Assembly: GCA_008080835.1 (NCBI GenBank) | Contig: VMDK01000001.1 | Coordinates: 1 to 35,934 of the forward strand | Length of the DNA: 35,934 nucleotides | Direction of reading: 5' to 3' | Origin: Sphingobacteriia bacterium | Lineage (GTDB): Bacteria > Bacteroidota > Bacteroidia > NS11-12g > UBA9320 | Shown here: one piece after another, positions 3,065 to 3,928 of the stretch | Numbering within the stretch: the stretch's first letter is position 1 | How the letters are laid out: each line of letters begins with the position of its first letter | Notes under the pieces: model-generated | What the model saw: the letters and a program-made list of their open reading frames with translations, nothing else | What the model was told of the DNA's origin: nothing | Databases searched by the model: none | Program-made: the position numbers and the translations under genes

Positions 3065-3156
3065 TACATGAACAAATGCCGTCGTGAGAGTTTGATATTA
3101 AAGTCTTAGGAATCTCGCGGAAAATTCATGTGCCGAATCGCCGGGCCTCATCTAGC

Positions 3157-3177
3157 GGGGTAGATGTTATCTACCCC
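3157..3177. repeat. REP-like palindrome 1 (A type)
   Basis: Perfect 9-bp arms GGGGTAGAT and ATCTACCCC around the loop GTT; one more C/G pair flanks it, giving 10-bp arms. Confidence 0.8.
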
Positions 3178-3270
3178 GATGAATCCAGAATCCGCAGACC
3201 TATTTAATGCTCAATCAGTATGCAGATGTCCGTTGAGGAGGACCATTTTTAATCCATTCTGCCATCTAAC

Positions 3271-3291
3271 GGGATAGATATCATCTACCCC
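3271..3291. repeat. REP-like palindrome 2 (B type)
   Basis: Arms GGGATAGAT and ATCTACCCC around a 3-base loop; one arm position mismatched relative to palindrome 1. Confidence 0.75.
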
Positions 3292-3394
3292 TATGAATTC
3301 GTGACTATAAACCGAAACGCCGTGAGAGTTTGATGTTGAAGTCTTTGGAATCTCGCGGAAAATTCATATGCCGAATCGTTAGGCCTCATCTAGC

Positions 3395-3415
3395 GGGGTG
3401 GATGTTATCTACCCC
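3395..3415. repeat. REP-like palindrome 3 (A type)
   Basis: Arms GGGGTGGAT and ATCTACCCC around GTT. The single A-to-G change is compatible with a G-U pair in a folded strand, so the hairpin is preserved. Confidence 0.75.
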
Positions 3416-3509
3416 TATGGCTAAAGCGCTCTTAGTTTTTATTGAGCGTTCAACCAATCTAGACGTCTGTTGAAGAGGTCCAATTATTAATCCATGATGC
3501 CATTTTAGA

Positions 3510-3530
3510 GGGGTAGATACCATCTACCCC
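3510..3530. repeat. REP-like palindrome 4 (B type)
   Basis: Perfect 9-bp arms GGGGTAGAT and ATCTACCCC around ACC. It lies 26 bases from the stop codon of the transposase gene, on its 3' side. Confidence 0.8.
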
Positions 3531-3556
3531 TCCCCTGAACCTTCACCACAATCCAC

Positions 3557-3928
3557 TCAATGATGCTCTGCTTGATTATGAATGTAATGTATAAGCGCTT
3601 TGAGACGAGACTTGTCTACCGTATGCAAGCTATAGCCTCTCTGCCATGAAAAATCCACGAGATGAGGAGAGATGCCTTTGATCTCCCTGGAGGATATGCG
3701 CTTTAAATCTCTGACAAAATCAGATATCGTCGAGGTTATTGGCGCATGACATAACAGGTGGACGTGATCGAAATATCCTCCGAATGCTATTGGTTGAACT
3801 CCCAACTCTTGACACAACCTAAAAAAGACGCGATTCAAATACCCCATATGTCGGTGGTGGAGTATTGGCCGATGGTGTTTAGTTGAAAAAGTTAGGTGAA
3901 TATATGCTTGAAGATAGTTTCTGTACAC
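3557..3928 (-). CDS. IS200-like / REP-associated Y1 transposase, C-terminally short
   Basis: 123 residues of the Y1 HUH single-strand DNA transposase family (TnpA / REP-associated transposase). The HUH metal-binding pair is His55 and His57 in DHVHLLC. The WQRGYS segment (96-101) and the C-terminal helix with the candidate nucleophile Tyr115 in HYIHNQAEHH are present. Family members usually run 20-30 residues beyond the NQxxHH segment; here the stop follows directly, so the protein is truncated or a short variant. No terminal repeats or partner TnpB gene are seen. Four palindromes lie directly 3' of the gene, the arrangement typical of REP-associated transposases, which act on REP hairpins. 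Whether the enzyme is active cannot be told. Confidence 0.85.
   Translation of the reverse strand: MYRNYLQAYIHLTFSTKHHRPILHHRHMGYLNRVFFRLCQELGVQPIAFGGYFDHVHLLCHAPITSTISDFVRDLKRISSREIKGISPHLVDFSWQRGYSLHTVDKSRLKALIHYIHNQAEHH

Follow-up and report, generated by a model that had tools for sequence, protein, structure and literature searches.

The locus analyzed here raises the question of whether an array of short palindromes, lying directly 3' of a Y1 HUH transposase gene, represents a REP/RAYT unit (REPtron), as stated in the original prediction, or another form of association between a single-strand transposase and repeated hairpins. It resides in the window, i.e., the whole stretch of 35,934 nucleotides that was analyzed, which corresponds to contig C16 of the host assembly (2.39 Mb, 149 contigs, 94.6% complete). 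The predicted origin from a Bacteroidota genome agrees with the presence of T9SS sorting domains. The observation itself proved to be real: the unit is REPtron-like in its working, fails defining RAYT tests, and shows no two-ended insertion sequence (IS) architecture in the window. It is probably best described as a REPtron-like unit based on an IS200-type transposase (class 1, subclass 1.2-like), with the GGGGTAGAT-NNN-ATCTACCCC hairpins most likely representing the recognition ends of TnpA.

Palindrome array and its dispersal in the host genome

Four 21-nt palindromes were indeed found 3' of the transposase gene, two of them matching the pattern exactly (copy 1, 3157..3177, plus strand, GGGGTAGAT-GTT-ATCTACCCC; copy 4, 3510..3530, minus strand, on which it reads GGGGTAGAT-GGT-ATCTACCCC) and two featuring one mismatch each (copy 2, 3271..3291, plus strand, GGGATAGAT-ATC-ATCTACCCC; copy 3, 3395..3415, plus strand, GGGGTGGAT-GTT-ATCTACCCC). 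Allowing up to three mismatches, these four matches in the window compare with a mean of 0.02 in shuffled sequences, and none of 100 shuffles reached four. As predicted, the palindromes are arranged as pairs in two tandem units of approximately 238 bp (3080..3317, holding one A-B palindrome doublet, and 3318..3555; neither is assigned to a strand). The units have diverged, sharing 78% identity over 216 nt, and a 102-nt direct repeat (90% identity) recurs at a spacing of 238 nt. The stop codon of the transposase gene and copy 4 are separated by 26 nt. All four copies lie on the 3' side of the gene, and no copy was detected 5' of it by the covariance model applied to the genome.

In the host genome, 20 matches to the pattern were obtained with up to three mismatches and 16 with up to two, compared to one and none, respectively, for the reversed control. 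A covariance model built from 18 palindrome copies recovered these copies and an additional degenerate one, resulting in 19 sites distributed over seven clusters on contigs C9 (two clusters), C16, C28, C64, C67, and C91, a count that refers to a fragmented assembly in which repeats may be collapsed. The palindrome is therefore not restricted to the locus at which it was noticed. Copies inside the clusters are mostly spaced by 87–125 bp. According to the ORF calls, 17 of the 19 sites are located outside ATG-initiated ORFs of at least 100 aa, and the overlap of the other two, both on C64, is limited to the upstream part of a single ORF, for which a lipoprotein start (MKQIFTALIAVFILLGC) downstream of both palindromes is more likely the true start. 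Based on these calls and on this one start-codon judgement, all 19 sites were taken as intergenic. The genome-wide count and the intergenic bias, proposed as checks in the original prediction, both turned out in favor of a dispersed palindrome family.

Pairing within the stem amounted to 95.7%, compared to at most 60.5% in slid controls, and a compensatory T-A to C-G change was observed at one stem position in three copies. The consensus of the 5' flank is CATnTAnC; a shared outer stem around the palindrome (CATCTA...TRGATG) paired no better than shuffled sequences. Between clusters, only the palindrome and its short flanks are shared, with no long internal sequence in common, and the units of approximately 104 bp on C67, as well as those of approximately 238 bp on C16, represent local tandem duplications. 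Accordingly, the repeats of approximately 100 nt between the palindromes, which had appeared as part of the repeated structure, are a local repetition and do not extend to the other clusters.

The palindromes might instead be regulator sites, terminators, or mRNA-stability hairpins that neighbor tnpA by accident. Such a role would be in line with the intergenic position of every copy, with the perfect palindromes as apt targets of dimeric DNA-binding proteins, and with the convergent genes flanking three of the clusters. However, two clusters are located in divergent upstream regions, Rfam yielded only sub-threshold matches and none at the gathering score at the window locus, and neither tandem arrays of two to four copies nor the class-wide linkage of palindromes to the transposase family described below would be expected. 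Moreover, as the seven clusters have about 14 neighboring genes among some 2,000 (estimate), a chance adjacency to the transposase gene would have a probability of <1%. This reading is considered very unlikely. The absence of a T-run after the hairpins led to the rejection of terminators in particular.

A search with the exact palindrome in 84,980 species genomes resulted in 12 single matches, nearly all of them in unrelated organisms. This number is about the chance level, and hence no second genome harboring the palindrome family of the window was found. The genus of the host is represented by this single genome, and the 37 other genomes of its family contained no copies except for two single matches with two mismatches. 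A synteny comparison of the insertion yielded no clear ortholog of the neighboring histidine kinase within this family.

Classification of the transposase

The gene adjacent to the array (3557..3928, minus strand) encodes a TnpA-Y1 single-strand transposase of 123 aa, assuming a GTG start, with DHVH as HUH motif and the catalytic tyrosine in YIHNQAEHH. It matched the Pfam family Y1_Tnp (78.9 bits, E 4.5e-22) and the NCBIfam IS200/IS605 model NF033573 (65.1 bits; cut-off 55), whereas the RAYT model NF047646 was not matched. The catalytic core is complete, since H55, H57, Y115, and Q119, which are invariant in the alignment, are all present. The motifs DHVH, WQ, and YIHNQAEHH correspond to the signature of TnpA-Y1 subclass 1.2 (DH[IV]H, WQ, Y---Q--HH) as defined by Quentin et al. 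2018 (PMC6006769), and the window enzyme shares with this subclass a low copy number and a Bacteroidota-type host. An AlphaFold2 model (pLDDT 89.9) found its best Foldseek matches in the TnpA proteins of ISDra2 and IS608 (E about 1e-8), the E. coli RAYT being more distant (E 8.5e-6). In a tree of 105 proteins, the class 2 RAYTs, including E. coli RayT and the RAYT on contig C5 of the host, were placed apart from the window protein with a support of 100/99; because the position of the window protein next to the IS200 enzymes may be aided by the lack of a C-terminal tail in both, only the statement "class 1, not class 2" is derived from the tree. Judged by motifs, tree, and modeled fold, the enzyme is assigned to the IS200 type (class 1) with a subclass 1.2 signature. 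No second class 1 Y1 gene was found in the host genome. The frame of tnpA is intact, and no tnpB is located beside it.

In contrast to subclass 1.2 proteins, the window protein does not feature the C-terminal tail of approximately 30 aa (mostly 26–31 aa in the homologs), its stop codon following straight after HH. Given the absence of this tail, the gene could be decaying, although the IS200-type enzymes in the alignment end near the same point.

The first proposal, namely a classical RAYT/REP unit composed of a class 2 transposase and GTAG-footed REPs, has to be measured against these results. As in the known systems (REPtron, REPIN, BIME; E. coli rayT, Stenotrophomonas, Pseudomonas GI-GIII), a Y1 HUH gene lies beside dispersed intergenic palindromes, and these form BIME-like doublets about 70–145 bp apart as well as tandem clusters. 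However, motif, NCBIfam model, tree, and fold all group the enzyme with IS200, and YIHNQAEHH, being of the class 1 type Y---Q--HH, contradicts the class 2 motif Y---NP of RAYTs (PMC6006769). The 5' GTAG or GTGG foot at 0–2 nt from the stem is missing, GTAG being present only inside the stem GGGGTAGAT; the copies are few (about 19, compared to the tens to hundreds expected of RAYT systems); and the palindromes lie on one side of the gene, whereas a RAYT gene is positioned between two inverted REPs. Furthermore, the genome possesses a real RAYT on contig C5 (G000:C5:4417-5132, L026), identified by NF047646 and representing the only other Y1 gene found. Its palindrome, CTGTCRCGGAT-N4-ATCCGYGACAG, is unrelated to that of the window and occurs in 14 copies genome-wide (none for the control), three of them around the gene, so that each of the two Y1 genes is accompanied by a different palindrome family. 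A classical RAYT/REP unit is therefore hardly credible for the window. The designation "REP-associated transposase" is accurate insofar as a Y1 HUH transposase is found beside dispersed palindromes, but the enzyme is not a RAYT; likewise, "REPtron architecture" describes the layout of a repeated, dispersed, and intergenic family, but not its footless, low-copy, and one-sided form.

A third palindrome family (CGTAGTCACCGCTCA...TCGCTAAAGACTACG) was encountered in the host genome with nine copies on contigs C9, C11, C12, C17, C27, C39, C50, and C65. Its two ends are accompanied by GTAG and its complement, which resembles the "double foot" of subclass 2.4 REPs, and no cognate gene was found for it in the host genome. 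On C9, C11, and C65, intergenic regions are shared between copies of the three families.

Palindromes at homologous loci and shared ends in relatives

A survey covered 80 homologous loci of up to 20 kb each, selected within a single class by similarity to the window protein. Palindromes were scored as repeated if their arms paired perfectly over 7 bp or more and had a 7-mer in common, a criterion that misses diverged copies. Such palindromes were present at a distance of up to 1.3 kb from the transposase gene in 36 of the 80 loci, whereas of 300 control windows taken within these loci, only 10 contained them (Fisher p = 2e-19). Per kb of intergenic DNA, the density was 3.1 near the gene and 0.35 elsewhere. 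The palindrome sequences vary from genome to genome. The CGACCCC-NNN-GGGGTCG type was detected in 59 out of 395 genomes, and in 45 of these, the transposase is encoded as well (odds ratio 8.0, p = 6e-12, uncorrected for phylogeny). Within the tree, in which some rows are unscored, a 14-member clade included 10 palindrome-positive loci, and a 12-member clade included none. The data thus say that a palindrome association of the subclass 1.2-type transposase is common in this class. In many homologs, palindromes are located on both sides of the gene, unlike in the window, and most homolog-bearing genomes carry one or a few copies of the gene.

Further arrangements were noticed among the homologs. 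In one genome (G038; L194-L199, L202), the pattern CATAGGGC-N3-GCCCTATG yielded 57 matches with up to two mismatches (control: 5), some of which form doublets about 95–120 bp apart. At L047/L087 and L068/L102, tandem arrays with runs of three to six copies are made up of two alternating palindromes unrelated to each other (A-B-A-B).

In two relatives, the palindromes delimit defined elements. In the genome G063, the ends of five two-palindrome elements of approximately 200–230 bp, and of three more copies matching partially, correspond to both flanks of the tnpA gene. On the plasmid of Persicobacter sp. JZB09 (CP012861.1), four doublets with a start-to-start spacing of 143–145 bp carry the left-type and the right-type palindrome that also form the ends around tnpA, arranged in identical order; these doublets, two extra right-end copies, and the tnpA element itself reside within about 13 kb (L231, CP012861.1:278800-292500). 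The gene-free elements of the plasmid and of G063 (approximately 190–230 bp) thereby resemble MITE/IS200-type pairs in having both ends of the tnpA locus, whereas the dispersed copies in the host genome are devoid of a long common internal sequence. At several loci (L086, L092, L098, L100, L110, L154, and L231), the main palindrome is accompanied by a second, shorter hairpin lying about 12 nt further out, mostly with a stem of 5–6 bp and a 3-nt loop, the stems being unrelated between genomes. Such a two-hairpin end was looked for in the host genome and was absent.

Based on these elements, the window might also be interpreted as the remnant of a conventional IS200-like element that lost one end, while the other was amplified to an array, the dispersed copies being old solo ends or MITEs. 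It would fit that the Persicobacter and G063 elements resemble an IS whose left end differs from its right end, accompanied by gene-free copies having the same ends, as would the shortness of the window protein for its subclass and the one-sided palindromes. With IS200/IS605 members (IS608, ISDra2, IS200), the enzyme shares fold, catalytic motif, and protein length, and presumably also the use of hairpins as substrates. In contrast to these members, the window gene is not framed by a hairpin end on each side, and a conventional IS with one palindrome per end, named in the original prediction as the competing possibility, is accordingly not what the window contains. Moreover, the gene exists as a single copy with intact frame and catalytic core and without tnpB instead of several near-identical copies, low copy numbers per genome are the rule for the homologs, unlike for an active IS, and the palindromes of the window type also occur in dispersed arrays without a gene, which have nothing but the palindrome and its short flanks in common. 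A decayed IS is thus regarded as unlikely. Points against the REPtron-like unit on an IS200-type enzyme, preferred in this study, are the one-sided palindromes, the short protein, the lack of a two-hairpin end, and the proportion of only 45% of homolog loci scored with repeated palindromes, with none in the 12-member clade.

Proposed mechanism and relation to the earlier survey

In a REPtron-like unit of this kind, the hairpin would fold in single-stranded DNA, for example on the lagging-strand template, and TnpA would bind the folded structure. The tyrosine of YIHNQ would then cut adjacent to the hairpin, and the cut piece could be rejoined or inserted at another place. Doublets about 90–125 bp apart may spread in this way and seed further intergenic sites, whereas recombination or slippage between close palindromes may have generated the local tandem units. 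Binding, cleavage, and mobilization of the palindromes by the enzyme, as well as the origin of the tandem units, are proposed here from the arrangement of the sequences.

In the survey by Quentin et al. 2018 (PMC6006769), subclass 1.2 was listed as REP-free. The automatic REP search applied there needed a GTAG or GTGG tetranucleotide at 0–2 nt from the stem, and consequently, palindromes without this tag would go unreported. The trait "no REP association" holds neither for the window, with its repeated palindrome, nor for the 36 palindrome-positive homologous loci. A later paper on an association of subclass 1.2 with palindromes was not found in the literature searched, although one may exist elsewhere. 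Tentatively, and with less confidence than is placed in the reading of the window itself, the subclass 1.2 tnpA genes of the class may constitute an independent kind of REPtron, widespread and descended from IS200-type enzymes. It would recognize hairpins without GTAG, which in several genomes are paired at a distance of about 12 nt, and would spread left-end/right-end doublets; in the host, the ends would have been separated from the gene and would persist as dispersed arrays. If true, this would represent a second domestication of single-strand transposition, apart from the class 2 RAYTs. The loci offer a natural intermediate between gene-carrying insertion sequences and domesticated REP systems, and Persicobacter sp. 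JZB09 is a named genome that allows a direct comparison of the ends, the copy with the gene, and the copies lacking it.

Elsewhere in the window, the ORF at 473-1126 encodes the C-terminal part of a thioredoxin reductase. The N-terminal part is found in the ORF at 1166-2047, together with a response-regulator receiver and a short match resembling glutaredoxin. The two ORFs (473-2047) possibly represent one gene split by a frameshift.
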